In this document: positions 8,235-26,151 of the stretch, one piece after another | Numbering within the stretch: the first letter of the stretch is position 1 | How the letters are laid out: each line of letters opens with the position of its first letter | Source: Niastella vici | GTDB taxonomy: Bacteria > Bacteroidota > Bacteroidia > Chitinophagales > Chitinophagaceae | Length of the DNA: 64,000 nucleotides | Assembly: GCF_002077945.1 (NCBI RefSeq) | Contig: NZ_LVYD01000113.1 | Coordinates: forward strand, 186,001 to 250,000 | Reading direction: 5' to 3' | Notes under the pieces: model-generated | Database searches by the model: none | Told to the model about the DNA's origin: nothing | The model's input: the letters and a program-made list of their open reading frames with translations, nothing else | Program-made: the position numbers and the translations under genes

Positions 8235-8906
8235 ATACCAGGCTAAGTTTTCGCCTTACCAGACTCAAAATGTCACATTTTGACTTAAGGATGCCGCATT
8301 TTGATTCAACATTTCGACTTACCAGAGCAACTTCAGCGCATTGCAGCCCCGGGTTGAGCCATACCTGAATGGAATTTCATCCTACCAGACTCGATTTACA
8401 TCATACCCGAATGGATTTTCATCATCCCAGGCTAAGATTTGGCCATACCAAAGGGAGGTATAGCCAAATCTTAGCCTGGAACGGCGAATTCTTAGCCAAT
8501 GATACCACAATGTTGCTTACTGACGCTCCATAATGAAATTTGGATACGACATTATGAGTTCCGGATACACTATAGTAATATCGGGATATTATATAGTTAT
8601 TACTGAAAATTGCATAGTTCCTGGATGCTGCCCCAAAGTTGCTAATTATGCCGCATATGTTGTAAACGATGGGGCACTTGTTGCAAACTATGGGACATTT
8701 GTTGTGAACGATGGGGCGCTTGTTGTAAACGATGGGACACTTGTTGTAAACGATGGGGCACTTGTTGCAAACGATGGGGTGCTTGTTGCAAACGGTGGGG
8801 CACTTGATCGCAACTTCTTGTGGAAAGTTTTTAAGGTTGAGGTGAAACTTCAAAACATTGGGGTCTAAGTTGCGAACATTGGGGCCTAAGTTGCGAACAT
8901 TGGGGC
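8235..8906. repeat. Array of 32 degenerate 21-bp units in unbroken phase
   Basis: The stretch divides into 32 consecutive units of exactly 21 bases with no insertion or deletion. Two related sub-families are seen. The left part (about 8235-8444) shares TACCAGACT near the unit start and CATC or GCC at the end. The right part (about 8508-8906) shares GTTGCAAACGATGGGGC, with seven near-identical copies at 8655-8801 and two identical copies at 8865-8906. Seven-codon heptads appear on translation: NDGALVV on plus and PIVYNKC on minus in the right half, TRLDLHH-like on plus in the left half in another frame. No frame is open through the whole array. I therefore regard the reading frames at 8422-8853 and 8533-8868 as by-products of the repeat rather than genes. 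Confidence 0.85.
8427..8479. repeat. Long inverted repeat inside the 21-bp array
   Basis: The 23-base arm at 8427-8449 pairs with 8457-8479 with a single mismatch and a 7-base loop (AAAGGGA). The core CCAGGCTAAGATTTGGC is matched by GCCAAATCTTAGCCTGG. It spans three units of the array and lies near the change from the left to the right sub-family. Transcribed RNA would fold into a strong hairpin. No T-tract follows on either strand, so it is not a standard terminator. Confidence 0.8.
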
Positions 8907-10985: not shown

Positions 10986-11074
10986 TTTTTCAAACGGGGT
11001 TGTGCCGATTTATCGGGACGGCCCCGTTTGCCCTTTCCCGGTTACCAATAAAATTGTATATTGGCACCCTACTT

Positions 11075-11728
11075 ATGAAAAAGTATCAAATCATCCTGAT
11101 CAGTGTTTTTGGGGCCCTTGTTTTATTAATCGTTATCGGGCGTTTAACCAATGCACTTCAATATTACAGCGTTCCCACAAAATCAAATGAACCCACTTTC
11201 AAAACAGGCTCACATTTCCTGGCCTCCAACTTATTTAAGCCTCAAAGATTCGATTTCATTTGTTATAAATCAACCGCCCCTGAATACGAAAAACAAACCT
11301 GGTTTCATAGAGTATGCGGGATGCCGGGTGATATTGTTGAGATCAGAAATGGCGACCTGTTCGTAAATGGTAAAAACAGTGATGGACCGCTTAACCTGAA
11401 AAAACTATACGTTATTCCCTATGCTATTGCAATCAATCTCGATTTTGAAGAGGGCGAAGCAATACCGCTTCCGGGCGATAGCATTTTGGCGCCCCTGGAA
11501 ACTATTAAACAAAAAGACATCATACAAAAATGCAGGCTCTATATTGACAGTAAAGAAGACCCTGCCATACATAGCACTTTTGGCAAACCCTGGTCGCCCT
11601 ATAATTTCGGGCCCTATACCGTTCCTGCCAATACCTATTTTGTAATGGGTGATAACCGGTACCGTTCTATGGACTCCAGGTATAATGGTCCGGTGGAAAA
11701 GAAAAATTACCTGACTACCCTATTTTGA
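11075..11728 (+). CDS. Signal peptidase I-like protein with His at the catalytic Lys site
   Basis: I use the ATG at 11075 (MKKYQIILISVFGALVLLIV), which gives one N-terminal membrane anchor and 217 residues; an upstream in-frame ATG at 11000 would put 25 unlikely residues before the anchor. The S26 boxes are visible: nucleophile Ser-37 in SNEPTFKTG, GMPGDIVEIRNG at 82-93 and the late box MGDNRYRSMDSRYNGPV. The residue that should be the general-base lysine (KR before the GxPGD box) is His-78 (FHRVCGMPGD), as in ER-type signal peptidases. It may use a Ser-His pair, or be inactive. It is convergent with, and 15 bases from, the peptide-export island, so a role in processing there is possible but unproven. 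Confidence 0.75.
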   Translation: MKKYQIILISVFGALVLLIVIGRLTNALQYYSVPTKSNEPTFKTGSHFLASNLFKPQRFDFICYKSTAPEYEKQTWFHRVCGMPGDIVEIRNGDLFVNGKNSDGPLNLKKLYVIPYAIAINLDFEEGEAIPLPGDSILAPLETIKQKDIIQKCRLYIDSKEDPAIHSTFGKPWSPYNFGPYTVPANTYFVMGDNRYRSMDSRYNGPVEKKNYLTTLF

Positions 11729-11743
11729 TAACTGCAAACGGCA

Positions 11744-13072
11744 TTATTTTTTAAAAAGCATTATATAGGCATTGTGGATCTGATTGATCCGGTGGGTGCT
11801 TTTTGCAAATAAGAAATTGAGCATTCCGGCATTTTCATTATGCATAGGTGTAACATCTGAATACCCAAAATCTTTTTGTTGAGAAATGAACGGGCAAAAC
11901 AACATCTTGTTTACAGTCATTTCAGAAAGCTTTTTGTCACCTATTACAGAATCATCAAAAGGTTCATTGAGAATAGATTGAAAGAATTTTTTAAAAATGA
12001 TTATAAATTGAGTTGAAAAACAAAAATTGGTCCATACCCTGTTTTCACTAACGGGTAATGCCAATCCAAATTTGCCCGATCCGCCAGACATATAATCAAC
12101 GTGCTGACCGTGTGCTTCAATAATATTTCTTATGAGTATCTCTTTGGAGTAATTTTCAGTGAACTCATGATCGTCTTCGCAAATAATAATTACATCATCA
12201 TCATTGACTATTGCTGCTTCAATTACTTTCCTGATACTCAACCATAAACCAACTGCCCCAACTTCATGACGGCATGCCTGTATTATGGAAACGTCGAACT
12301 CATTTTTTCCTCTAAATTGTTCCTCTATGTGTTTCCTTCGCTCGGTTCTTTCAGGTAGGTTGATTATATAAGTTGGAATTCTATATGATCCTATTTCGCA
12401 AAGATCCACCTCTTCCTTTAGCGAAAGGGTGTTATGGTAAAACTCCGAAATGTCTTTAATGGCATCAATTGTGGTGCAACTCTTTTTAAATAATGCTTCC
12501 ACCCTGCCCTCTACATTGTTCTTTGCAGTGGCATCGGAGTATCCAAACTCCTTTTGAACGGAAATAAATGGACAAATAAAAAATCTACGGTCTGTTAAGC
12601 TACAGATCTTATAATCGGCATCATCTCCGGCATTAAAACCGGCATTTAGCATTGTTTCAAAGAAATTCCTGAAAATTATCAGAAACTGAGTACCCGAAAA
12701 CATTTCCATCCAATACACATGCTCTGTACACTGTATAGTTCCGGTGAACCAACTTACCCCACCAGACAATACATCAGCGTTCAGCTTTTTTGCATCTGCA
12801 ATGGCGTTAAATAGTTTTTCTGACGAATAATCATCTGTGAACTGATGATCATCTTCACAAACTACTATAAAATCGGCTGACCTATTTTGAGCAATGGTTA
12901 TAACCTTTTTGATACTATTCCATAAACCAATAGGGCCAATATCGTGTGAACAGGCTTCAATTATCTGAACATCGAATTCCTTTTTATTTTTAAATTCCTG
13001 TAAAATGTATTCTTTTCTTTCTGTCCTGTGCTTTAAATTGATCACATAAACAGGAATAGGATGGTTGAACAT
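11744..13072 (-). CDS. Tandem-duplicated GT25-like glycosyltransferase
   Basis: Two copies of one glycosyltransferase domain make up 442 residues: about 5-205 and 228-435. Both start with the GT25-like signature (VYVINLKHRTERKEYI / TYIINLPERTERRKHI), share EACSHDIGPIGLWNSIKKVI / QACRHEVGAVGLWLSIRKVI, and keep the acidic VCEDDHQF / ICEDDHEF motif expected to bind metal and nucleotide sugar. Both also end with CPFISxQKxFGYSD. GT25 enzymes transfer galactose or glucose to saccharides or hydroxylysine. No membrane segment is seen, so it should act in the cytoplasm. It ends the minus-strand arm of the peptide island, 24 bases after the TlpA-type gene, making the exported peptide a candidate acceptor. 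Confidence 0.75.
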   Translation of the reverse strand: MFNHPIPVYVINLKHRTERKEYILQEFKNKKEFDVQIIEACSHDIGPIGLWNSIKKVITIAQNRSADFIVVCEDDHQFTDDYSSEKLFNAIADAKKLNADVLSGGVSWFTGTIQCTEHVYWMEMFSGTQFLIIFRNFFETMLNAGFNAGDDADYKICSLTDRRFFICPFISVQKEFGYSDATAKNNVEGRVEALFKKSCTTIDAIKDISEFYHNTLSLKEEVDLCEIGSYRIPTYIINLPERTERRKHIEEQFRGKNEFDVSIIQACRHEVGAVGLWLSIRKVIEAAIVNDDDVIIICEDDHEFTENYSKEILIRNIIEAHGQHVDYMSGGSGKFGLALPVSENRVWTNFCFSTQFIIIFKKFFQSILNEPFDDSVIGDKKLSEMTVNKMLFCPFISQQKDFGYSDVTPMHNENAGMLNFLFAKSTHRINQIHNAYIMLFKK

Positions 13073-13096
13073 GAATAATTTTTATTTGATAACATA

Positions 13097-14230
13097 TCAT
13101 TTAACTGACCTGGAAAGTAAATCAACCAGAACACCCGGCCTGTCTTCTTCACTGCTATAAACAATTACGCCTTCCTTATTGATCAAATAAATCAATGGAA
13201 TTGGTTTGCCACCATAATTTGTATAAATTTCCCTTTGGCGGTCGAAAATGGTTGTCCAATTTATTTTATGTACACCCATGGCCTTTGCGAAGGCTGAAGA
13301 ATCTGAATCGATGCTTATACTTATTACCTCCAGTCTATCGGCGCTGTAATTATCACGGATCTTTCTGATCGATGGCATTTCCTGCAGGCAGGGACGGCAC
13401 CAGGATGCCCAAAACTGCAGCAGAATATATTTCCCCCTGTAATTGCCTGTATTAATTGTTACGCCTGTAATATCGTTCGCCGAAAAAGCAGGCGCTTTTA
13501 GCCCTTTATTTGCGTGCACAATTCCATTCATAACTCTAACGGTCTCTTTCCCCTCAAAACTATTTCTAACAGCTGCAGGAAACGAAGCAAATACCTTTGA
13601 TAAAACGTCGGGCTTAATAAAGTTAGTTCCTGAAATATTCCGTTTGAACACCCAAAAGGAATAATATTGATCATTATACTTTTTTACAAATTCCAGTTGC
13701 TTTTTAACAAGAACACCTGACCTTTCATGCATGACCTGCATAACAGAATCCTTATTTGTTTCGTTAGTTTTATTGTCATAATAATCCATAATTTCATCCA
13801 GCTGCGAGGTTTCTTTTGCTGTAAAAAGGCGCATTTTTACTGCTGCCGGCAATTTCCTGATCTCAATGGCATTTAAAAGTTTGCAGCTATCTAAAGGATC
13901 AGCGGGTGTATCGCCATTTTTGCTTTCTGCAAAAACAAGTGAAGAAGACCCTTCGTTCAGGAAATACTCATTACTATAAAATGCCCCTGATGGCTTTCTG
14001 TATAAAACTGCAAGCATTACATATTTTGAATAAAACGTACCGGAAATGGTGGCTTTATTTTCATTAAACGTTGTGGCAACCGGGTATACCGTTTTGCCAT
14101 TATCATATTGCATAATGACCTTTCGGGTATCTATATTTGCAGGAAACCGGATCTCAGTAGTAAACTTTTTTTGGGCATAACAATCCTGCGCAAGGTATAT
14201 CGAAAGGGCAGCAATGAAATATCGCATCAT
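13097..14230 (-). CDS. TlpA-type thiol-disulfide oxidoreductase with DUF4369-like domain
   Basis: This exported protein of 377 residues has a signal peptide ending near CYAQ. The first ~120 residues resemble the beta-rich DUF4369 domain often fused to TlpA proteins in Bacteroidota. A helical linker follows. A C-terminal AhpC/TlpA thioredoxin fold starts at about residue 238 (APAFSANDITGVTINTGNYR) and carries the active-site motif WASWCRPC. The cis-Pro region is GKPIPLIYLIN. It should act in the periplasm as a reductase or isomerase of disulfides. In the peptide island it is a natural partner for the six-cysteine precursor and the VKOR fusion. A hairpin separates it from the precursor gene upstream. 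Confidence 0.85.
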   Translation of the reverse strand: MMRYFIAALSIYLAQDCYAQKKFTTEIRFPANIDTRKVIMQYDNGKTVYPVATTFNENKATISGTFYSKYVMLAVLYRKPSGAFYSNEYFLNEGSSSLVFAESKNGDTPADPLDSCKLLNAIEIRKLPAAVKMRLFTAKETSQLDEIMDYYDNKTNETNKDSVMQVMHERSGVLVKKQLEFVKKYNDQYYSFWVFKRNISGTNFIKPDVLSKVFASFPAAVRNSFEGKETVRVMNGIVHANKGLKAPAFSANDITGVTINTGNYRGKYILLQFWASWCRPCLQEMPSIRKIRDNYSADRLEVISISIDSDSSAFAKAMGVHKINWTTIFDRQREIYTNYGGKPIPLIYLINKEGVIVYSSEEDRPGVLVDLLSRSVK

Positions 14231-14261
14231 ATTCTAATAAGTTAGGTACCTATAAAGATAA

Positions 14262-14305
14262 AATATTTCTCCAGGTTATTCCCGGGTGCAACCTGGAGAA
14301 ATATT
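14262..14305 (-). terminator. Strong hairpin between precursor gene and tlpA-like gene
   Basis: Perfect 16-base arms (AATATTTCTCCAGGTT at 14262-14277 and its complement at 14290-14305) enclose a 12-base loop. It begins 24 bases after the stop of the precursor gene on the minus strand and is followed by a T-rich stretch. It could be a partial terminator or an mRNA-stabilising end that makes the precursor more abundant than the genes after it. Confidence 0.65.
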
Positions 14306-14329
14306 AATGATACCCGGTTTCAGGTAATA

Positions 14330-14554
14330 TTAGTGACAGGAACTATTGGAACCGTCGGGGCATACACATTGTGTATAACCGCTAACTACCTTTGTATTGC
14401 ACACTTTATATGAACTTCCCACAACACACAACGTAGAACATTGGCCGCTTCCGCCATCGTCTAAAACAGAACCACCAAACACATTTTTTAACTGATCTCT
14501 GGAAAGAACTTCTTTAGCGCCGAGTTCAAGCGCTTTCAACTTCAATTTTTTCAT
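14330..14554 (-). CDS. Double-glycine leader precursor peptide with six-cysteine core
   Basis: A 74-residue precursor. Residues 1-28 form a leader of the Bacteroidetes GG type: MKKLKLKALELGAKEVLSRD, then QLKNVFGG, with the LSRDQLKxVxGG pattern recognised by C39 peptidases. Cleavage after Gly-28 would release a 46-residue core starting SVLDDGGSGQC. The core has six cysteines at 39, 43, 52, 63, 65 and 73, enough for three disulfides, and many Ser and Thr residues that could carry sugars. There is no YGNGV motif, so it is not a bacteroidetocin-like pediocin. The gene lies between the VKOR fusion and the TlpA-type gene and opposite a peptidase-containing exporter. Bacteriocin or signalling activity is inferred only. 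Confidence 0.85.
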   Translation of the reverse strand: MKKLKLKALELGAKEVLSRDQLKNVFGGSVLDDGGSGQCSTLCVVGSSYKVCNTKVVSGYTQCVCPDGSNSSCH

Positions 14555-14588
14555 TTTTTTTCGTTTAGGACTGTTTAATAATTAAGAT

Positions 14589-14605
14589 CTTATCAGTTTG
14601 ATAAG
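14589..14605 (-). other. Small hairpin upstream of the precursor gene
   Basis: CTTATCA-GTT-TGATAAG gives a 7-bp perfect stem with a 3-base loop, located 35 bases upstream of the precursor start and 27 bases after the upstream stop. It may be a weak terminator, an attenuator or an RNA-processing site that isolates precursor mRNA. Confidence 0.45.
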
Positions 14606-14631
14606 AAATATTTCCCTCCATTGTACCATGG

Positions 14632-16278
14632 TTAAACAGAAAGAAAATATTTTAGATCTGTTACATTATACATTTTTGGCAACTGATAGCCGTTTACAAA
14701 AAAAGTGGGGGTAAAATCTATCCTGTTTTCCATACACCAATGCTGCATACGTTCTACTTTGCTGACCTGGTCTTGAATTTCGCCATTCAGCGGGTACATT
14801 TTTTCGAACATTTCATAGTCTTTTATATTTCTCATATACCAGTTATCCAACGCCTCTCTTGTTATTGTTTCATCGCCTTTTTCAGCTATCGCCATTAAGT
14901 GTCTTGCTACAGGTTTTCTTATATCATCTTCTTCGTTGGCTGTAAAAAAAATAATTTGTACCTGCAAATCAGGATTATTGGCCAGGAGACCATCTATGAT
15001 CTTATGAGATTCGGAACAGGGTTTGCAATATGGATTGCAAACCTTAACAATCCGGGTAGTTGCGTTTCGATTCCCCAACAGCAGCCCCATCCCCTCCACT
15101 GACCTATCTATACTTCTTTCCCGAACCAGCAATGTTTCAAATATTTTGGGACTATGTTTAAGCCGTTGCAATTGAAGCTTGTTGCTTTTACTTTGTTTGG
15201 CCGAACGGTACGCCGGCTCCAGCAAACTTACTGATACAAAAGGGACAAGAATTGCTACAACAACCGGAAGCAGGATGTAAGCAGACAGGGCTTCATCAAC
15301 CGGTATGGCCGTATGCCATTCTGCTATAATGGAAGTGACCAACTGCAGGAGTAAAATAAATTGTACTGACAGGCATAGCACACACCATTGTTTTATCACG
15401 CGCCATTGATAAAAAACAGAAAACAATATGTAAGGCGCTGCCATTGCATTGAGCCAGGAGATAACAAAAAGCGCCCTGGGATTGGTTATACCCCAAAATA
15501 GTAACAATAATATTTGTGCGGAAAAATAAGTAAACCCAAGGGTAGCCCAACTGATACCGGCTATTTTAGCCCCCCTTGAATTAAGCACCGCTCCACAATT
15601 GATCTTATTCGTGGGGCGACATATTTTTTGAAGAACGGGCGTATACTGATCCAGCTCGAATAACAGCAGTAATACGCCAACGACTGCTCCCGCAAGTGTA
15701 AGTATTGACATTGAAAATGGGAGCAAAGCATTCATTCCCTGTTGGGCAAAACTAAATACACCGTAAACAAGAAACACAAGAGGTAAACAAATTGAAATAG
15801 CCGCAAGAAAAAACTGTTTATTATTCTCCTGCCTTATTTTCTTGTTGTAATCGATTTCACCAGCACCTTCTTCTACTTCCGCCATTAAAATAACGCCTGA
15901 ACTTCTTTCATAAAAGTCATCAGCACCACAAGTTTCCCACCTGGCATTCTCATGATCGTAATATCGAACAGCACCATTGTTTATTGAAGAAACTACCGCA
16001 AAATAATTGACAGGTCTTTTTATACCTCTTAGGTTGGTAATAAACGGAGTGGGCACTTCAAAAAAACTGTTTTTGTCGAAACTGGCTGAAATATTAGAGA
16101 TCCCATAGCTATTCAGCACATCGCTAATACTTAAAAGACTTGGATAATCAGGATGTTCTTCAATGTCTTTTGTAAGTGAGGCATTCGTTATTTTAACCCG
16201 TAGCAGATCAGCAAACAATTTAGCGGATTCAAAGCAATTGGTTTTAGGCTCAAATAGCTTATAGATAATGTTGAACAT
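14632..16278 (-). CDS. Fusion of C39-like domain, VKOR domain and thioredoxin
   Basis: I use the ATG at 16278 (MFNIIYKLFEPKTNC), three codons after a GTG. Residues of about 1-130 have the C39-peptidase layout (CFESAKLFADLLRV, HPDYPSLLSISDVLNSYGIS, DHENARW), but the active-site His is replaced (VNYFAVVSS), so it is probably a leader-binding C39-like domain. Residues of about 150-350 are five membrane helices of a vitamin K epoxide reductase homologue, with a loop Cys (NKINCGAVLNS) and the CxxC motif WCVLC. Residues of about 390-548 are a thioredoxin-like domain with CNPYCKPC. VKOR-thioredoxin fusions form disulfides in exported proteins and pass electrons to quinone. This one stands directly upstream of the six-cysteine precursor, which it may recognise by its leader. 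Confidence 0.82.
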   Translation of the reverse strand: MFNIIYKLFEPKTNCFESAKLFADLLRVKITNASLTKDIEEHPDYPSLLSISDVLNSYGISNISASFDKNSFFEVPTPFITNLRGIKRPVNYFAVVSSINNGAVRYYDHENARWETCGADDFYERSSGVILMAEVEEGAGEIDYNKKIRQENNKQFFLAAISICLPLVFLVYGVFSFAQQGMNALLPFSMSILTLAGAVVGVLLLLFELDQYTPVLQKICRPTNKINCGAVLNSRGAKIAGISWATLGFTYFSAQILLLLFWGITNPRALFVISWLNAMAAPYILFSVFYQWRVIKQWCVLCLSVQFILLLQLVTSIIAEWHTAIPVDEALSAYILLPVVVAILVPFVSVSLLEPAYRSAKQSKSNKLQLQRLKHSPKIFETLLVRERSIDRSVEGMGLLLGNRNATTRIVKVCNPYCKPCSESHKIIDGLLANNPDLQVQIIFFTANEEDDIRKPVARHLMAIAEKGDETITREALDNWYMRNIKDYEMFEKMYPLNGEIQDQVSKVERMQHWCMENRIDFTPTFFVNGYQLPKMYNVTDLKYFLSV

Positions 16279-16741
16279 CACTTGCACTTTTAAAATTTAC
16301 AGAAAGAGGATATGCAATAACTATCCATTTGAATATTCTCTTAAAGAATATCCAGCGATTCAAAATGACAATACCTGATCATGCATGTTACAACATGCAA
16401 TCACTACAACTGATTAATTTTTCCCGAATGTTTACGCTGTCTGATTAACGGCTTAGGTAAGTCGGATGCTTTTTATTACTTTTATTTCCCCGATTGTTGA
16501 AGAGTTTGTTACCGGGTTGAATTGAATTGAAATTTCTACTCTTGTACAACAATGATCAAAAAACTTCTTTCTGGTTTCTTTCTGTACTGAAGTTATTAGT
16601 TTTTTTCGTTTCCCAAAATTTTTTTTATTCAACCAGTTTGTTAAAACCGTGACAAAAGATACATCCTGGTCATAAGGCTGATCAAAAAAAATTACTATCC
16701 TTAAGAATTGATAAAAAGAATTAATCTAAAAAGAAAAAAGA
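16279..16741. promoter_or_regulatory. Divergent control region of the peptide island
   Basis: This AT-rich gap holds no convincing gene. It separates the minus arm (VKOR fusion, precursor, TlpA, GT25-like) from the plus arm (exporter, HlyD, GT14-like). Two inverted repeats stand out: ATATTCT at 16333-16339 with AGAATAT at 16345-16351, and the perfect TGCATGTT-AC-AACATGCA at 16382-16399. The second is symmetrical enough to be a dimeric regulator site. TACTCTTG at 16537-16544 is a one-mismatch -7 box for the plus arm. No regulator gene is linked to the island. Confidence 0.5.
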
Positions 16742-18928
16742 ATGTCCTTTACACATTATAAGCAATTAAATGCTATGGACTGCGGTCCTACCTGCCTGCG
16801 AATGGTGGCAAAAAAATATGGGAGGCATTATAATGCAGAAACCCTGCGGCAAAAAACCGGATTTAGCAAAAGAGGAACTTCTCTTTTAGGAATAAGCGAA
16901 GCCGCTGAAAACATTGGATTCAGGACAAGAGGCGCTCAAATATCATTCGATAAATTACAGATGGTTCCTTTACCTGCAATTCTACATTGGTCAAGCAACC
17001 ATTTCGTAGTATTGACTGATATTAATAAAAGGAAGGCCACTATAGCAGATCCGGCCTTAGGCATTTTAACGTACAAAAAAGGAGAGTTCCTTCAATATTG
17101 GATATCTAACAAAGCTGCATACGCCGGCGGTATTGGAACAGTATTGCTGCTTGAACCAACACCCGCATTTTTTGAGTCTGAAAGTGAAAAAGAAGAAAGG
17201 GTGACCTGGAGTTTACTTACCAGGCATCTTACACCAGGCAAGTGGCAATTAATGCAGGTATTAATGTCTTTACTTACAGGGATGTTACTCCAATTGATAT
17301 TACCATTCCTGAGCCAGAGCATGGTTGATACGGGCATCAATACCGGCAACTTACAATTTATAACCATTGTATTGCTTGCACAACTGGCGCTTACTTTAGG
17401 AAGCACTATCAATGAGTTTATCCGAATGAGGCTTCAAATGCGCATTTCCAATATCATTAATATTTCTCTGCTCTCCGACTTCTGGATAAAAGTAACAAAG
17501 CTTCCGGTATCTTATTTCACTTCGCACCATACCGGTGATACACTGCAGCGCATAGGCGACAACAAAATAGTACAATCATTTCTTACCAGCCAGGCATTGT
17601 CGATGTTAATTTCAATTTGCAGCTTTTTTGTTTATGCCGTTATTCTGAGCTTATACAGCATCCCCTTATTTGTAGTTTTCTTTACCGGCAATCTGCTTTA
17701 TTTTGGATGGATACGGCTCTTTCTTCGTTTTCGCAGAAAGATGAACTATGCAGGCTTTCATCTTTCCAGCAAAATGAATAATACAACATTGCAGCTCATT
17801 CAGGGAATGCAGGAAATTAAATTGAATAACGCCGAACAATTGAAACGCTGGGATTGGGAAAATTTGCAGGTGCAGCAATTCAAACTTAATTACAAAAACC
17901 TTAACTACGATCAAATTCAAAATATTGGCGCCTTATTTATTAGCCAGGGTAAAGACCTGATACTAAGTTTTATGGTTGCTCAAATGGTAGTTCAGGGACA
18001 GTTGACCCTGGGTACGATGATAGCTGTTCAATTTATCATCAGCCAGTTAAGCGGACCGGTTTCTCACCTGGTCAATCTTGCTCAAAATATGCAGGACGTG
18101 AAAATAAGTCTCGAAAGACTTAATGACATATACAAAATAGAAGACGAAGAACCTGCGGGTAAAACTTTTATAACCCAATTGCCACATAATAAAAGTATCA
18201 ATTTAAGCCGTGTGTCCTTTACTTATAAGGGCGATGGCAACAAGCCGGTATTGGAAGATATTTCATTATTGATCCCCCAGGGCAAGGTAACTGCAATAGT
18301 TGGCATAAGCGGGAGCGGCAAAACAACACTTTTAAAACTATTATTAAAAATTTACGACCAGTATAATGGAGAATTAAAGGTTGGCGGAGCTGATCTTAAG
18401 CATATAGGACATTCTTTCTGGAGAAATCAATGTGGAGCAGTATTACAGGACGGATATATTTTCAATGATACAATCGCCCGCAACATTGCAGTAGGCGACG
18501 AATACATTGATGAAGACAGGCTTTTACATAGCTGCCAAATGGCAAATATCCTTTCTTATATTGAAACACTTCCCAATGGTTTTAATACCCAATTGGGATC
18601 AGAAGGAGTTGGTATAAGCCAGGGGCAAAAACAACGGTTGTTGATTGCGCGGGCAATTTATAAAGATCCCCAATACCTTTTTTTTGATGAAGCAACCAAT
18701 TCACTTGATGCCAACAACGAAAAGATAATTGTAAAAAATCTGAATGAGATCTTTAAGGGCAGAACCGTTGTCGTAGTAGCCCATCGCCTTAGTACAGTAA
18801 AAGACGCCGATAAAATAGTTGTATTACACAACGGGAAAATAATTGAAGAAGGAACGCATACCGAATTAACTTCGATCAGAGGCGCCTATTATGAACTGGT
18901 TAAAAATCAACTCGAGTTAGGCAATTAA
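16742..18928 (+). CDS. Peptidase-containing ABC transporter (C39 peptidase, TMD, NBD)
   Basis: This 728-residue protein cleaves double-glycine leaders and exports the peptide. The C39 peptidase domain (1-~130) has its full set of residues: Gln-8, Cys-14 (NAMDCGPTCLRM), His-87 (NHFVVL) and Asp-103 (ADPALG). About six membrane helices follow (~165-440). The ATPase domain has Walker A GISGSGKTT near residue 521, a signature loop GISQGQKQR near 624 (Q in place of the second G of LSGGQ) and Walker B YLFFDEATNSLD near 646, then the H-loop AHRLS. The HlyD-type gene follows 16 bases later. It is the obvious processor of the GG precursor at 14330-14554. Confidence 0.93.
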   Translation: MSFTHYKQLNAMDCGPTCLRMVAKKYGRHYNAETLRQKTGFSKRGTSLLGISEAAENIGFRTRGAQISFDKLQMVPLPAILHWSSNHFVVLTDINKRKATIADPALGILTYKKGEFLQYWISNKAAYAGGIGTVLLLEPTPAFFESESEKEERVTWSLLTRHLTPGKWQLMQVLMSLLTGMLLQLILPFLSQSMVDTGINTGNLQFITIVLLAQLALTLGSTINEFIRMRLQMRISNIINISLLSDFWIKVTKLPVSYFTSHHTGDTLQRIGDNKIVQSFLTSQALSMLISICSFFVYAVILSLYSIPLFVVFFTGNLLYFGWIRLFLRFRRKMNYAGFHLSSKMNNTTLQLIQGMQEIKLNNAEQLKRWDWENLQVQQFKLNYKNLNYDQIQNIGALFISQGKDLILSFMVAQMVVQGQLTLGTMIAVQFIISQLSGPVSHLVNLAQNMQDVKISLERLNDIYKIEDEEPAGKTFITQLPHNKSINLSRVSFTYKGDGNKPVLEDISLLIPQGKVTAIVGISGSGKTTLLKLLLKIYDQYNGELKVGGADLKHIGHSFWRNQCGAVLQDGYIFNDTIARNIAVGDEYIDEDRLLHSCQMANILSYIETLPNGFNTQLGSEGVGISQGQKQRLLIARAIYKDPQYLFFDEATNSLDANNEKIIVKNLNEIFKGRTVVVVAHRLSTVKDADKIVVLHNGKIIEEGTHTELTSIRGAYYELVKNQLELGN

Positions 18929-18944
18929 TAATAAAACCTTATCT

Positions 18945-20285
18945 ATGGATAAAAAAGATATCAATGGCGCTTCAAAAGAAACGACCTTTGCCGAAAGTAT
19001 TAAAGAAACCATCAGTCAGCGGTCTGAAATAGTTCAGGACGTTTTGGACCGAAAACCAAAATTTATTGAAAGATGGGCCTTCCCATTATTCCTGATCATT
19101 TTAATAGCCCTGTCAGGCGCTTCCTGGTTTGTTCAATATCCCGACATCATTGAAACAAGGGCGACTATTACTGCAGCCAATGCGCCCAAAGAGATCATGC
19201 CTTATCAGGAGGGAAGAATAGTTAAACTATTTATTAAAAACAAGGACATTGTAAAAAAAGGCGATCTGTTAGCCTGGATAGAAAGCACGGCCAATCATGG
19301 AGAAGTATTAAAGTTATCGACTCTTCTTGATAGTTGCATAGAATTAATAAGCACAGGGCAAAACGCTGCCGTATCAGAGCTGTTCAATACCAATTTTAAC
19401 AATTTAGGTGAACTGCAACAGGAATATCGTGGGTTTGTTTCTTCATTGCAATTATTCAATGACTATATCGCAAACGGGTTTTATACTAAAAAGAAAAGGA
19501 ACATTGAAAATGATATACAGTCATTAGAAGGAACCAGGCAAACAATACAAAACCAAAAGAACCTAACCGAACAGCAGCTTAAACTGGTTGAAGAATCATA
19601 CAATATGAATAACACTTTGTTCAAAGACAGGATCATATCTGCAGAAGAACTAAGGACACAAAAGGCAAATTTATTAAATAAGCAAATGGATGTTTCGAAA
19701 ATAGACGCGTCACTGTTTTCCAATGAAGTGCAAAAAAGAGAAAAGCGCAAGGAAATAGAACAGATCGATCACGATATTTCGCAACAGGAAAATATATTTC
19801 AACAGGCACTTCTTTTACTGAAAAGCTCGGTTGATCAATGGATAAAGCGATACGTGCTGCAATCACCTATCGACGGAGAGGTAAGCCTTGTGATTCAATT
19901 GCAGGAAAACCAGTTTATACAACAAGGCAGATTAATTGGATTTATTAATCCCCGTGACAGTCGTTTTTATGCCGAGACCTATTTGCCACAACAAAATTTT
20001 GGCAAGATAGCAACTGGTGCCAAAGTGCAATTAAGAGTAGACGCTTACCCTTACCAGGAAACAGGGATCCTTAATGGGAAATTAGACTATATATCAAATG
20101 TCGCATCAGATAGTGGTTTTTTGGCGACCATACAATTCGAAAGAGGTTTGACAACTAATAATAAGTTTACCATTCCCTATAAAAACGGCCTAAGGGCACA
20201 GGCTATAATTATAACTAAAGACATGCGGTTATTACAACGCCTCTATTATGGTTTAATTAAATCAACTTCAATAGGAAAAAAGTAA
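18945..20285 (+). CDS. HlyD-family periplasmic adaptor of the peptide exporter
   Basis: A 446-residue membrane-fusion protein: cytoplasmic N-terminus (~1-42), one transmembrane helix (WAFPLFLIILIALSGASWFV), a split lipoyl/barrel domain with MPYQEGRIVKLFIKNKDIVK at about 85-104, and a long coiled coil (~150-285, rich in Q, E and K). The returning half-motif is YVLQSPIDGEVSLV at about 301-314. Such adaptors join an inner-membrane exporter to a TolC-type channel. No TolC gene lies in the island, so the channel must be elsewhere; the TolC homologue at 26844 belongs to an RND operon. The gene is cotranscribed with the C39 exporter and ends 2 bases before the GT14-like gene. Confidence 0.88.
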   Translation: MDKKDINGASKETTFAESIKETISQRSEIVQDVLDRKPKFIERWAFPLFLIILIALSGASWFVQYPDIIETRATITAANAPKEIMPYQEGRIVKLFIKNKDIVKKGDLLAWIESTANHGEVLKLSTLLDSCIELISTGQNAAVSELFNTNFNNLGELQQEYRGFVSSLQLFNDYIANGFYTKKKRNIENDIQSLEGTRQTIQNQKNLTEQQLKLVEESYNMNNTLFKDRIISAEELRTQKANLLNKQMDVSKIDASLFSNEVQKREKRKEIEQIDHDISQQENIFQQALLLLKSSVDQWIKRYVLQSPIDGEVSLVIQLQENQFIQQGRLIGFINPRDSRFYAETYLPQQNFGKIATGAKVQLRVDAYPYQETGILNGKLDYISNVASDSGFLATIQFERGLTTNNKFTIPYKNGLRAQAIIITKDMRLLQRLYYGLIKSTSIGKK

Positions 20286-20287
20286 TT

Positions 20288-21148
20288 ATGCACCTCAACT
20301 ATTTAATATTAGCCCATAATAACCTGGCACAATTAGATCTGTTGATTGATTCCCTTGATAATGACAAAACCAGCTTTTTTATCCATGTCGACAAAAAAGT
20401 ACCTGCAGCTGAGATCAAAAAATACAGGTTTTACAGAAACAGCCGGGTTAAAATTACCGGGAACAGGATCAGTATAAACTGGGCAGGGTTCAGTATGATA
20501 CAGGCAACACTGCTATTAATGAAAGCAGCAATAGCGGCGAAGAAGAAAGGATATTTCATTTTGCTAAGCGGCCAGGATATGCCGGTAAAATGCAACGAAT
20601 ATATTTATGATCACTTACACGCCAACTATGGAAAAGAATACATTAACTTCTGGACTATTCCATATAGTGGCTGGGGACGCGACGGTGGGGCGCACAGGAT
20701 CAATTACTACTGGCTTATTGATAAAATAGGATATGAAGAAAGTCATGTTCTTTATATTCTTCAAAGAAAAGTTAACCTGAAGAGAGCATTCTTTAAAGAT
20801 TTTGCGCCTTATGGCGGATCTCAATGGTGGTGCTTAACGCATGATTGCATTAAATACATATTAAAGTATATCAAATTCAATCCGGTGATCATGGATTATT
20901 TTGAATTAACTGCATTTGCTGATGAAATTTTTTTTCAATCAATAGTACTGAACTCTCCTTTACAGGACCATATAGTAAATGATAATTTAAGATACATTGA
21001 CTTTCAGGATGGGGAATCGCACCCCAAAATATTAACCGCTGATGATATACCTGTCGCAATACGATCTGACAAACTCTGGGCAAGGAAATTTGACTTCCAG
21101 CATAACAGCATCATTTTTGAAGAGCTCGCAAATCAATTGAAAACCTAA
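20288..21148 (+). CDS. Core-2/I-branching-type (GT14) glycosyltransferase
   Basis: This 286-residue cytoplasmic protein resembles the core-2/I-branching beta-1,6-N-acetylglucosaminyltransferase family (GT14). The start HLNYLILAHNNLAQLDLLID and the segment SFFIHVDKK are family hallmarks, followed by YFILLSGQDMPVK and the SQWWCLTHDCIKYI and DEIFFQSIV segments near the C-terminus. In bacteria these enzymes modify surface or secreted glycans and peptides, and most substrates are unknown. The 2-base gap to the HlyD gene implies a shared mRNA and translational coupling, so it very likely works on or with the exported peptide. It is unrelated to the GT25-like enzyme at the other end of the island. 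Confidence 0.8.
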   Translation: MHLNYLILAHNNLAQLDLLIDSLDNDKTSFFIHVDKKVPAAEIKKYRFYRNSRVKITGNRISINWAGFSMIQATLLLMKAAIAAKKKGYFILLSGQDMPVKCNEYIYDHLHANYGKEYINFWTIPYSGWGRDGGAHRINYYWLIDKIGYEESHVLYILQRKVNLKRAFFKDFAPYGGSQWWCLTHDCIKYILKYIKFNPVIMDYFELTAFADEIFFQSIVLNSPLQDHIVNDNLRYIDFQDGESHPKILTADDIPVAIRSDKLWARKFDFQHNSIIFEELANQLKT

Positions 21149-21151
21149 AAA

Positions 21152-21760
21152 CTAATTGAATAGCTTATATCTTTTAAAGGTTCTTCCCTTCCGCCGTAAC
21201 CAGGCATGGTAACAGGAAGGGATATCGCATTCCGGCCCGGGCAACAGGGAAGAGATAATGATCCTGTCTATTTGCGATAGTAAACCAGTTACCAAACAAA
21301 TACGAAACAACCAGAGCGGCTGCGTTCCTGCCAGCAGAAATGTAAAAGTAAAAAGCAACAGAACGCCCCAGGTTTTGGAAAGCCAGTTATGGGCGCAGCC
21401 GCTTTTTTTGAACTTCACCAGGTTGATGAGATCCGATACCGGTTCCAGCAAAAACAACACGGCAATAAACCCCAGATGGTCTTTCAGCAATTGCCCGTTC
21501 AGCAACCAGATACAAACTCCCGCCGCCAGCCAGAATACAATATCAACATTGGCATCCCATTTACGCAGGCTGTTGGTAGCCACCCCCAGATTGCGCGCAA
21601 TGATGCCGTCAAAGATATCAGAGATCATTCCGGCCCACAAACAACTCACCAGGAACCAGCCGCTTCGATGGGTTTGCAAAGTGTAGCCAAGCATTACCGG
21701 CGCCAACAGCAGCCGGAAGATCACCAGCGAAAAAGGGACCGCTTTTTTTATTTTTTCCAC
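21152..21760 (-). CDS. CDP-alcohol phosphatidyltransferase family protein
   Basis: The start is GTG, inside the last codons of the upstream MFS gene (13-base overlap). The first residues KIKKAVPFSLVIFRLLLAPV suit this family, and the product has 202 residues with about five membrane helices. The CDP-alcohol transferase motif is DIFDGIIARNLGVATNSLRK followed by WDANVD, so the four metal-binding aspartates are kept. The glycine normally eight residues after AR is Leu. These enzymes join CDP-diacylglycerol or another CDP-alcohol to an alcohol to make phospholipids. The product cannot be deduced, and the altered glycine makes a typical phosphatidylglycerol-phosphate synthase less likely. Confidence 0.78.
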   Translation of the reverse strand: MEKIKKAVPFSLVIFRLLLAPVMLGYTLQTHRSGWFLVSCLWAGMISDIFDGIIARNLGVATNSLRKWDANVDIVFWLAAGVCIWLLNGQLLKDHLGFIAVLFLLEPVSDLINLVKFKKSGCAHNWLSKTWGVLLLFTFTFLLAGTQPLWLFRICLVTGLLSQIDRIIISSLLPGPECDIPSCYHAWLRRKGRTFKRYKLFN

Positions 21761-23037
21761 GCTTTATTGATTAGTTGAAGGAATATAAAACCAATGACAA
21801 AGAACAGGCTCAACGTAGCCACGCTCGAGCGCATGGAGCCCGTCATGTATTCCATTAACCCAAATAAGAACGTGCCTATCACCACGCCTATTTTGTCGAG
21901 CACATCATACAGGCTGAACCAGGTGGCATATTCATCCTTTTCTTTTTGAATGAGGGTGGCAAACAAGGAACGCGACATAGCCTGGGTTCCACCCATCACC
22001 AGTCCTACCAGGCAGGCCATAATATAAAATTGCGTACTATTTTGTACCGAATAGCCGATGAAACAAATAAGCACCCAGAACAATACGGATATTTTTACCG
22101 CCATCAAATTGCTGAACTTTTTTGAGACCCATACAAATACATAAGAGCCGGCAATGGCCAGCAATTGCAGTATGAGTATAACACCGATCAAATGGGCCGT
22201 AGTAAGATTGAGTGTTTTAGTGGCAAATACGCTCGACATGCCCATGATAGTGGTAACACCCATATCGTAAAAAAAGAAGGCCAGCAGGAACAGCGCAATA
22301 ATGCGGTGCTTGCGCGCCTGGCGAAAAGCCTGCACAATGCGCGCATAAGACTGAACAATTATTTTAAAACTGATAGCATGATGCTTATGATCGGGCGGCA
22401 GTCCCTTTAATGAATAGGCGGCAAATAACAACCACCACATTCCAATAAAGACAAATGAAAGCCGCACCGGGATGGCGGCGTGGATTTGTTCGGATGAGAA
22501 CCCGATGGTTCCGGCAAATTGAATGATAAGCAAACTGATCACCAATGCGATCATGCCACCCAGATAGCCCCAGGCAAATCCTTTGGCACTTACCGTATCG
22601 TATTGTTCGGGACCAGCAATCTCGGGTATATAGGCATTATAAAACACCACACCAAGGCTATAGCAAACACTGGATATTATAAATAATGCAGCAGTTAACA
22701 GGATCTGTTGAGAAGTTGAAAAATACAGCAGGGCGCAACTGATGGCCCCGATGCCCGAGAAGAAGGTCATGAAAAATTTCTTGCGGCCGGCATAATCTGC
22801 GACAGAACCAAAAAGCGGACTTAAGAACAGCAGGAACAAGCTGGCGAATGAATACATGTAGGCATACAAAACGGAGTTGCTGAGCTTTTGCCACCAGGCC
22901 GTACCGTTACCCGCCGTATCAAGACTAAGGAAATAACTCGGAAATATAGCCGAGGTGATCACCAGGGAATAACTCGAGTTGGCCCAATCGTACCAACACC
23001 AGGCGTTGATCGTTTGGTTTTCCTTTTTTTTCAACAT
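21748..23037 (-). CDS. UMF1-type MFS transporter
   Basis: I use the ATG at 23037 (MLKKKENQTINAWCWYDWAN); an upstream TTG would add 17 non-conserved residues. The 429-residue product has twelve predicted membrane helices and the AWCWYDWANSSYSLVITSAI start of the UMF1 branch of the major facilitator superfamily (Atg22-related). The inter-helix motif FGSVADYAGRKKFFM corresponds to MFS motif A. In fungi Atg22 exports amino acids from the vacuole; the bacterial substrate is unknown. Its 3' end overlaps the CDP-alcohol transferase gene, so the two are cotranscribed. Confidence 0.85.
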   Translation of the reverse strand: MLKKKENQTINAWCWYDWANSSYSLVITSAIFPSYFLSLDTAGNGTAWWQKLSNSVLYAYMYSFASLFLLFLSPLFGSVADYAGRKKFFMTFFSGIGAISCALLYFSTSQQILLTAALFIISSVCYSLGVVFYNAYIPEIAGPEQYDTVSAKGFAWGYLGGMIALVISLLIIQFAGTIGFSSEQIHAAIPVRLSFVFIGMWWLLFAAYSLKGLPPDHKHHAISFKIIVQSYARIVQAFRQARKHRIIALFLLAFFFYDMGVTTIMGMSSVFATKTLNLTTAHLIGVILILQLLAIAGSYVFVWVSKKFSNLMAVKISVLFWVLICFIGYSVQNSTQFYIMACLVGLVMGGTQAMSRSLFATLIQKEKDEYATWFSLYDVLDKIGVVIGTFLFGLMEYMTGSMRSSVATLSLFFVIGFIFLQLINKAWKK

Positions 23038-24325: not shown

Positions 24326-24626
24326 TATTGGGTGAACCACTTCAAGGCGCCAGTACTGAGGCACAGCTTCTGTGGTCATTAACACCAAAGGCATGATGGT
24401 AGCAGCCAAAACAATGGCGTTCTCCTGTATTGACCTGTTTACCCAACAGGCGCTGATCGCAAAGGCAACCGAAGAGTTCAACCAGGCCAAAGGCCCCGGC
24501 TTTAAATACCAATCTTTGATCGGCGACCGCAAACCGGCGCTGAATTACCGCGACCAGGGCCCTGAGCGCCCTGCCCGTAGTCGAAAGGTAGCACCCAAAA
24601 GCGTTGCGCGAAGTGGAAAAGCTTAA
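24326..24626 (+). pseudogene. Remnant copy of the M20 amidohydrolase C-terminus
   Basis: The frame from about 24372 reads GMMVAAKTMAFSCIDLFTQQ, ALIAKATEEFNQAKGPGFKY and GDRKPALNYRD. It matches the end of the intact gene just downstream (GMINAAKAIVLTGIDLFTQP, GDRKPALNYRD). About 15 earlier residues with a shifted frame may also match. The rest of the gene is missing. It is the tail of a former tandem paralogue. Past the stop-equivalent point the frame runs into a dispersed repeat (24560-24588). Confidence 0.75.
24560..24588. repeat. Short dispersed repeat, second copy
   Basis: CCTGAGCGCCCTGCCCGTAG followed by TCGAAAGG is, in reverse complement, related to the element at 932-979 (CTTCG..TACG..CGCTCAG). 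It sits directly after the amidohydrolase remnant. The match is partial, so the link between the two copies is suggestive only. Confidence 0.4.
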
Positions 24627-24669: not shown

Positions 24670-26151
24670 ATGAGAAAATTATTCCTGCTCAACCTGATCA
24701 TAACAGGGGTACTGGCTCTTCAAAGCGACTTTCTGTACGCACAAAAAAAAGCGACCGGCAATGCCGATGCGCTAAAAACAACCGCCCTCAACGATGTTCA
24801 ATCGCAGTACGATCTCTACAAAAAAACCGAGCAGCAGATCTGGAGCTATGCCGAAGTGGGTTATAAAGAATACAAAAGCTCCCATTTATTGCAACAGGTT
24901 TTGCGCGACAATGGATTTACCGTCGACAGCGGCGTAGCTGAAATGCCTACCGCCTTTGTAGCAACGTACGGTAGCGGAAAACCGGTGATCGGTATACTCG
25001 CAGAATTCGACGCCCTACCCGGCTTATCGCAGGACACCAGTCCTGAAAAGCATCCACGCCCCGACATGAAAGAAGTGAATGCCGGACATGGTTGCGGACA
25101 CCATTTGTTCGGAACGGCCTCTGTAGCTGCCGGGGTGGAATTGAAAAAACTGATCGAAACTGGCAAACTGAAAGGCACCATCAAAGTATATGGCTGCCCG
25201 GCGGAAGAAGGCGGTTCCGGAAAAGTTTACCTGGTGCGCGCAGGATTATTCAATGGCGTTGACGTAGTGATGCACTGGCACCCCGGCGACCGGAATGCAG
25301 TGAATGCAGGGCGAAGCATGGCCAATATCAGCGCCAAATTCCGTTTTCATGGCATTTCGGCCCATGCGGCCGCTTCACCCGAAAAAGGACGCTCGGCAGT
25401 AGACGCAGTAGAAGCCATGGACAATATGGTCAATATGATGCGCGAACATATTCCATCGAGTACCCGTATCCATTATATTATCACCAACGGCGGCAAAGCC
25501 CCCAATGTGGTGCCCGATTTCGGTGAAGTGTATTACTATGTACGCAACCAGGACCGTGAAATAGTGCGCAGCGTATTTGAAAGAGTGGTGAATGCCGCCA
25601 AAGGCGCCGCATTGGGAACCGGCACTACGATGGATTATGAAATTACCGGTGGCGTATACGATCTGTTACCCAATATGGTATTGAGCGAAGCCATGTACAA
25701 AAACCTGGTTAAAGTAGGGGGCGTAACCTATACGGCAGCAGAAGAAGCCTATGCAAAAAAAATACAAACAAGCTTCGATTTTAAAGCCCCTGATGTTGAG
25801 GCAGCCAGCAAAATAGACAGCCTGAAAGCCGATACAAGCGGTGAAGGGTTCGGTTCTACAGACGTAGCCGATGTAAGCTGGACGGTGCCTACCGTGGGTT
25901 TAAGCACCGCCACGTGGGTACCCGGCACACCGGCCCATAGCTGGCAGGCGGTAGCCGCAGGCGGTATGGAGATAGGCGCCAAAGGCATGATCAATGCCGC
26001 CAAAGCTATTGTACTTACCGGCATCGATCTGTTTACACAACCAGCGTTGATCGGGAAAGCTACGGCTGAATTTAACCGGGCAAAAGGCGCCGGTTTTCAA
26101 TACAGACCCATGCTGGGCGACCGTAAGCCCGCATTGAATTACCGGGATTGA
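24670..26151 (+). CDS. Secreted M20D-family amidohydrolase (AbgB-like)
   Basis: A 493-residue metallohydrolase with an N-terminal signal peptide (LFLLNLIITGVLALQSDFLY, cleaved near AQ). The peptidase M20 fold carries GILAEFDALPGLSQ at about 117-130, the metal site GHGCGHHLFG at about 139-148, PAEEGGSGK at about 177-185 and HWHPGD near 203. The order fits the aminobenzoyl-glutamate/aminoacylase subgroup (M20D), which hydrolyses N-acyl amino acids. The signal peptide places it in the periplasm. A weak -7-like TATCTTTA occurs at 24654-24661. A tail fragment of a second copy precedes it, and a terminator follows. Confidence 0.88.
   Translation: MRKLFLLNLIITGVLALQSDFLYAQKKATGNADALKTTALNDVQSQYDLYKKTEQQIWSYAEVGYKEYKSSHLLQQVLRDNGFTVDSGVAEMPTAFVATYGSGKPVIGILAEFDALPGLSQDTSPEKHPRPDMKEVNAGHGCGHHLFGTASVAAGVELKKLIETGKLKGTIKVYGCPAEEGGSGKVYLVRAGLFNGVDVVMHWHPGDRNAVNAGRSMANISAKFRFHGISAHAAASPEKGRSAVDAVEAMDNMVNMMREHIPSSTRIHYIITNGGKAPNVVPDFGEVYYYVRNQDREIVRSVFERVVNAAKGAALGTGTTMDYEITGGVYDLLPNMVLSEAMYKNLVKVGGVTYTAAEEAYAKKIQTSFDFKAPDVEAASKIDSLKADTSGEGFGSTDVADVSWTVPTVGLSTATWVPGTPAHSWQAVAAGGMEIGAKGMINAAKAIVLTGIDLFTQPALIGKATAEFNRAKGAGFQYRPMLGDRKPALNYRD

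Follow-up and report, generated by a model that had tools for sequence, protein, structure and literature searches.

Glycocins are peptides whose glycosyltransferases are of the GT2 type. Sublancin, glycocin F and thermoglycocin/orniglycocin, the latter with three disulfides, are small disulfide-bearing ribosomal peptides, associated with a glycosyltransferase, thioredoxin-like proteins and a protease-exporter, according to PMC12457901. A locus of similar plan is found in Niastella vici (Bacteroidota; genome of 10.06 Mb in 134 contigs), at positions 11744 to 21148 of the 64,000 nucleotide stretch analyzed here, indicated below as the window (contig NZ_LVYD01000113.1, 186,001 to 250,000). The seven open reading frames (ORFs) listed there by a sequence-only reading are all present as described, in two divergent arms, as checked on sequence and ORFs. 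Pfam recognizes a protease-exporter and thioredoxin-like proteins, while none of the seven proteins matches Glycos_transf_2: the glycosyltransferases found are of families GT25 and GT14. The locus differs from glycocins also in the presence of a VKOR fusion, in its Gram-negative host, and in the proposed sugar site, placed in a linker ahead of the first cysteine. It is therefore glycocin-like in plan, but not a glycocin: of the glycocin-like combination first suggested, the likeness of plan survives, while the GT25/GT14 set is not constant and the sugar is predicted.

Bacteroidetocins (class IIf) share with the locus a Bacteroidota double-glycine (GG) leader, a thiol oxidoreductase, a peptidase-ABC exporter and likely disulfides. 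Their leader is of 15–16 residues, versus 28 here, and bacteroidetocins A and B contain four cysteines (at least two in the family), versus six; in the main text of the paper describing them, the term "glycosyl" is absent (PMC6671954). Among GG-leader Bacteroidota peptides, the precursor weakly resembles TIGR04149 (19.6 bits, under the 25-bit cut-off), and no radical SAM protein is found by Pfam among the locus proteins. A survey of Bacteroidales clusters for ribosomally synthesized and post-translationally modified peptides reports, in its available part, glycosyltransferases in two clusters, with S-glycosyltransferase domains, and no occurrence of GT25 or VKOR (PMC10352776). In the open PMC literature on GT25, none of the matches listed joins GT25 to a precursor peptide. 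The nearest solved folds, COLGALT1 for GT25, XT1 and C2GnT-L for GT14, show about 10–22% identity to the locus enzymes.

The locus is predicted, with a probability of about 0.6, to make a secreted, disulfide-bonded peptide, O-glycosylated by the tandem GT25 enzyme on a serine of a Gly/Ser linker. Since this enzyme sits in peptide loci and goes with the linker, a glycosylated disulfide peptide, as anticipated by the sequence-only reading, is the best explanation. Site, sugar, order of steps and function are proposed here on the basis of genes, linkage, motifs and the GT25-linker association. The tandem two-domain GT25 (442 aa; 11744..13072, minus strand), a candidate peptide O-glycosyltransferase, would act in the cytoplasm on the precursor (74 aa; 14330..14554, minus), whose linker SVLDDGGSGQ (14441..14470, minus) runs from GG to the first cysteine; the proposed site is the serine of GSG. 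GT14 (20288..21148, plus) would add a further sugar, probably extending the glycan. The VKOR/thioredoxin fusion (14632..16287, minus) and the TlpA/ResA-type protein (13097..14230, minus) would then oxidize the six cysteines to three disulfides, the degenerate C39-like domain of the former perhaps holding the leader. Finally, the C39-peptidase ABC exporter (16742..18928, plus) would cut after GG and, together with the HlyD-family periplasmic adaptor (18945..20285, plus) and a putative outer-membrane channel, secrete the 46-residue peptide, whose likely role would be antagonism of other bacteria.

The new part of the locus is the tandem GT25 enzyme. The profile Glyco_transf_25 (PF01755) matches it in two stretches (4.7e-11; 43.4 bits, cut-off 24), and an EDDH motif is present in both domains: E73, D74, D75 and H76 of domain 1 are nearly invariant across 37 relatives, the motif of domain 2 less so. 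By fold search with the AlphaFold2 (AF2) model (predicted local distance difference test score, pLDDT, 91.8), the nearest solved fold is human COLGALT1, a protein galactosyltransferase; the alignment spans both GT25 domains, with a root mean square deviation of about 20 Å for the two-domain fit. A PDB search by sequence with A1, an alignment of GT25 proteins, gives no match at 0.1, the links to COLGALT1 and LH3 coming from the fold search only. Enzymes of the GT-A type that lack a signal peptide work in the cytoplasm; in the AF2 models of both GT25 and GT14, a strand begins among the very first residues.

Relatives of this GT25 are found in 7 of the 147 genomes sampled from the family, the window's genome counted. 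An order-level scan of 248 genomes with A1 returned, apart from the locus itself, one match, weak and single-domain, so that the distribution may be described as patchy; here and below, absence of GT25 refers to one profile over stretches of limited length, which diverged or distant copies would escape. The complete set (GT25, redoxin-like protein, precursor, VKOR, exporter, HlyD and GT14) recurs in another genome, G106, in a locus (L070) of about 12 kb interrupted by a methyltransferase gene. Because the set recurs there, and much of it in the loci described next, the island is more than a chance assembly.

A one-genome-per-species scan with a five-sequence alignment yielded 46 GT25 loci, in Chitinophaga, Niabella, Mucilaginibacter, Pedobacter, Sphingobacterium, Flavobacterium, Dyadobacter, Anditalea, Hoylesella and others; L105 and L107, among these, are places already taken from G071, a genome of the same genus as that of the window. 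Within 8 kb of GT25, VKOR is present in 30 loci, HlyD in 29, TlpA in 13 and an exporter match in 33, which is full-length with the C39 signature in 27; a precursor is found anywhere in the locus in 28. A VKOR fusion, a full-length C39 exporter or a GG precursor lies near GT25 in 38 of the 46 loci by a strict rule, requiring the full-length C39 signature, and in 41 by a looser one, accepting every match to the exporter query, even if short or partial. In some loci GT25 is split into two adjacent single-domain genes. When the gene set is looked for across Bacteroidota, as the sequence-only reading had advised, the linkage of GT25 holds in most loci, while the glycosyltransferase set varies.

Precursors adjacent to GT25 tend to have a common leader end, E-[VIL]-L-[ST]-R-x-Q-L-K-x-[VI]-x-G-G; a Gly/Ser-rich stretch then runs to the first cysteine, as in DGSGTKD, TGSGGPDA, STGSGGSGGSGS and the SVLDDGGSGQ of the window. 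In a first sample, evaluated by one detection rule throughout and omitting L193, "GS or SG" occurs in the linker of 22 out of 26 loci with GT25 and of 9 out of 37 without it. An enlarged sample, in which L193 and L261 were kept in spite of their spurious precursors, while eight loci were dropped as duplicates or near copy, has "GS" in 26/32 versus 10/64 (P = 4.5e-10). Among precursors with the same leader type the figures are 25/28 versus 1/9 (P = 3.5e-5), a small test given the nine loci without GT25. An unselected set came from a search of 60 Chitinophaga genomes with VKOR as query (42 places, all but one represented among the loci; 35 precursors): "GS" is found in 13/15 loci with GT25 versus 1/20 without (P = 9.1e-7), and the motif [DNTSEA]GS, at most 5 residues from GG, in 12/15 versus 0/20. 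In the 27 Chitinophaga regions taken after the hypothesis was set (precursor in 21, none in 6), the same motif is present in 4/5 versus 0/16 (P = 8e-4). Linkers beside GT25 have a median length of 9.5 residues, versus 6, and are richer in Gly (0.31 vs 0.18), Ser (0.25 vs 0.09) and Asp (0.11 vs 0.06).

Several observations weigh against glycosylation of the linker by GT25. The linker motif was spotted first in loci featuring GT25, mostly found through it. Shared descent must also be considered: on a tree of 123 VKOR rows GT25 changes 20 times, at least 11 of them on well-supported branches, and hence came and went often; independent pairs on supported branches are eight, "GS" changing the same way in 5.1, the opposite way in 1.1 and showing no difference in 1.8, with a median P of 0.22 in the sign test. 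Trimming, by a rule chosen after this result was known, removed L193 and L261 together with the 11 loci without GT25 in which one flank of VKOR is shorter than 5 kb: counts become 26/30 versus 8/57 (P = 2.8e-11), and six independent pairs are left, 5.2 changing the same way and 0.1 the opposite way (median P 0.0625). One contrary row, L243, lies at the end of a contig, and the GT25 locus of the same genome (L111) begins at the end of another contig, so that the lack of GT25 in L243 is doubtful. The direction of the association is clear; the independent events are few. As for linkage, the strict rule fails in 8 of the 46 loci (L094, L109, L110, L112, L118, L124, L132, L134); among these, L112 contains an ORF resembling a precursor, with AG as its site, and L110 begins near a contig start, the VKOR of its genome (L242) being near the end of another contig. 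Nine loci feature a GS linker and no GT25: two of them speak in favor of glycosylation, having other glycosyltransferases beside the precursor (two Gly_transf_sug proteins in L252, a UDPGT in L176), while no other glycosyltransferase was identified in the remaining seven. Conversely, L239 has a GT2 and no GS linker. These data come from 47 proteins of the nine loci and 120 of the 275 proteins of GS-negative loci (neighbor tallies cover the top 25 families, and no rate is claimed); they do no more than suggest that GS linkers may mark glycosylation by enzymes of different types. Finally, four loci (L092, L102, L123, L125) have GT25 and a believable precursor without a GS linker, the Pfam label of GT25 is "LPS (lipopolysaccharide) biosynthesis protein", and the Gly/Ser stretch could be a mere spacer.

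A spacer, flexible and holding the folded core away from the C39 site, would be all that the linker is if GT25 modified Ser/Thr or Cys within the six-cysteine core. This alternative is regarded as unlikely. In its favor, linkers beside GT25 are longer, four of them lack GS, and a known glycocin enzyme puts N-acetylglucosamine on Ser and Cys of its peptide (PMC12457901). Yet Ser and Asp increase there along with Gly, and the need for a spacer should hold for the loci with the same leader and no GT25, where GS is found in one out of nine. The LPS label, in turn, would fit enzymes that leave the peptide alone and alter the surface glycan of the producer, shielding it from its own toxin; in agreement with this, no immunity gene was recognized among the seven locus genes, and UDP-galactopyranose mutase accompanies some GT25 loci. 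The change of the precursor linker with GT25 would be left unexplained, and this possibility is regarded as improbable. Even less credit is given to an ordinary, unglycosylated bacteroidetocin-like disulfide peptide, with glycosyltransferase genes that are remnants or adjacent by chance. GT25 is indeed missing from many VKOR loci, and a peptide, a thiol oxidoreductase, a transmembrane protein and an exporter are enough for a bacteroidetocin region (PMC6671954); against it stand the linkage of GT25 in 38 to 41 of 46 loci, the conserved motifs of both GT25 and GT14, and the recurrence of the set in G106. It is also rather improbable that GT14 is the initiating enzyme, as in animal proteoglycans, by an XT1-like transfer to the Ser-Gly of an acidic G-S-G (DDGGSG in the window), GT25 extending the chain. 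Human XT1 is its closest solved sequence relative (2e-8, versus 7e-5 for C2GnT-L), and E213, matching the XT1 base E529, is invariant in 25 sequences. The XT1 UDP-xylose site residue D494, however, aligns with Q178 (hand-counted), and in the 286-aa protein Pfam matches the Branch domain alone, with no Xylo_C: both features expected of a peptide O-xylosyltransferase are therefore missing.

GT14 is proposed to act in extension of the glycan, possibly in its initiation. This Core-2/I-branching, xylosyltransferase-like enzyme scores 92.3 bits with Branch (PF02485; 4.6e-26, cut-off 23.4); its AF2 model has a pLDDT of 95, and fold search ties C2GnT-L and XT1. Relatives are found in 39 of the 147 family genomes, near a tandem GT25 in three. 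A role of GT14 as universal partner was considered and rejected: few GT25 loci have it, and most relatives in the family sample lie elsewhere. None was found in the GT25-negative VKOR loci examined. Other sugar genes recur beside GT25, in favor of the proposed glycosylation: gene clustering of 48 GT25 loci (the 46, the window and L070) gives GT14 in 8, a GT10-like protein in 7, GT2 in 5 (L113 and L114 being near copies), UDP-galactopyranose mutase in 5 and DUF3405 in 4; for each of the last four types the name comes from the Pfam match of a single member, GT10 being just at the cut-off. A ninth GT14 beside GT25 is found in L270.

It is tentatively proposed, at somewhat less than even odds, that Bacteroidota produce phylum-wide a class of secreted mini-proteins carrying a short O-glycan on a Gly-Ser linker before the disulfide core, initiated by a two-domain GT25 dedicated to peptide glycosylation and lengthened by a variable set (GT14, GT10, GT2, galactofuranose from UDP-galactopyranose mutase). 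Such a bacterial design would draw on the same two enzyme families that in animals put sugars on collagen and on the Ser-Gly sites of proteoglycans. If GT25 indeed glycosylates these peptides, it would join the peptide-modifying enzymes, and Bacteroidota loci read as plain disulfide peptides would become glycopeptides, predictable by their linker motif. Small bacterial relatives of the collagen and proteoglycan glycosyltransferases would be on offer for study, along with a route to glycosylated disulfide peptides from Gram-negatives, whether living in soil or, like Hoylesella oralis, associated with humans.

Disulfide and export parts were assigned, as all locus proteins, by Pfam and NCBIfam profile searches: the tandem GT25-like, TlpA-type, VKOR, C39 exporter, HlyD and GT14-like identities initially given are all matched by Pfam. 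The six-cysteine GG precursor is likewise confirmed, with a 28-aa leader up to GG (14471–14554) and a 46-aa core (14333–14470); the predicted monoisotopic mass of the core is 4629.985, falling to 4623.938 once three disulfides are formed. Proteins of the VKOR and TlpA types act on disulfides, and C39 exporters cleave after GG. The exporter matches Peptidase_C39 (4.8e-34) and ABC domains, DCGPTC and HFVVL motifs being visible by eye; the adaptor matches HlyD_3, TIGR01843 remaining below cut-off; the TlpA-type protein, with a CxxC (WCRPC), matches AhpC-TSA/Redoxin, and its N-terminus resembles, by eye, a signal peptide. In the protein first read as a C39-like/VKOR/thioredoxin fusion, VKOR is well supported (9.2e-16), while Thioredoxin_4 and C39 matches are weak: the C39-like part, starting at profile position 26, scores 18.2 bits against a Pfam cut-off of 22, and probably does not stand as such. 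Cysteines 223, 231, 302 and 305 of VKOR and 421 and 424 of thioredoxin are kept in all 123 aligned relatives; C18, the sole cysteine of the N-terminal C39-like stretch, is not conserved among them. The fusion should accordingly form disulfides, its C39-like part being probably a degenerate domain, judging from its sequence, and probably non-cutting.

The VKOR fusion is not peculiar to this locus, being widespread in Bacteroidota GG-peptide loci: it was found in 26 of 147 sampled family genomes (at E 1e-10) and in 39 of 395 sampled phylum genomes (at E 1e-30). It has GG precursors for neighbors, frequently six-cysteine ones, and many loci also include HlyD and a C39 exporter. GT25 is absent from 84 of the 123 rows of the VKOR tree, in a sample enriched for GT25; glycosyltransferase genes are thus not the fixed part of the set that had been supposed, and GT14 is optional. 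As the fusion is widespread and most sampled loci lack GT25, the disulfide and export halves (fusion, TlpA, C39 exporter, HlyD) are an ordinary peptide platform of the phylum.

This platform seems to export varied disulfide mini-proteins. In GT25-negative Chitinophaga VKOR loci, some GG precursor cores match eukaryote-type disulfide modules (L266:10538-10849; L237:7028-7375; L240:6944-7363; L271:10644-10955; L273:10769-11134): the modules, seen in a scan of 10 precursors picked by eye, are hevein-like chitin-binding (PF00187, 1.9e-12) and low-density lipoprotein receptor class A (PF00057, 3.8e-8 to 2.6e-11). Nine small six-cysteine GG precursors in a row adjoin one VKOR fusion in L267 (6462-8921). 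Another VKOR locus, L252 (9480-13182), has a Gly/Ser-rich linker and no GT25, its precursor being surrounded by the two Gly_transf_sug proteins and one with DUF5672: it is perhaps a second glycopeptide type. In Longitalea luteola (L072:5519-10703, corresponding to L107), a radical SAM protein and a C39 exporter precede a tandem GT25; the GG peptide has four cysteines, and no VKOR is present in the stretch. GT25 may therefore serve radical SAM peptides too. In L105 (16112-17983), an array of seven GG precursors resembling one another, with ends of the type CCSxxxxSCC(G), lies near GT14, GT25, GT4 and C39 exporter genes.

Within the window, the minus arm is transcribed in the order fusion, precursor, TlpA-type protein, tandem GT25, and the plus arm in the order exporter, adaptor, GT14, the latter starting two bases past the adaptor stop. 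The divergent control region between the arms (16288..16741) measures 454 bp if the fusion starts at the GTG at 16287; the 463 bases originally reported hold for an ATG start, three codons on. TAnnTTTG is a Bacteroidota promoter element; none is found in 16201-16760, nor does any Rfam family match at gathering scores within 11000-22000. The flanking genes, coding by Pfam for a signal peptidase (11000-11728) and a CDP-alcohol phosphatidyltransferase (21760-21152), look unrelated to the island. Farther away, a 21-base tandem repeat (7.1 copies) is present at 8658-8806, where ORFs overlapping in several frames are probably not genes. At 24372-24626, an 84-aa ORF appears by eye similar to the C-terminus of the protein encoded at 24670-26151, and is perhaps a duplicate remnant.

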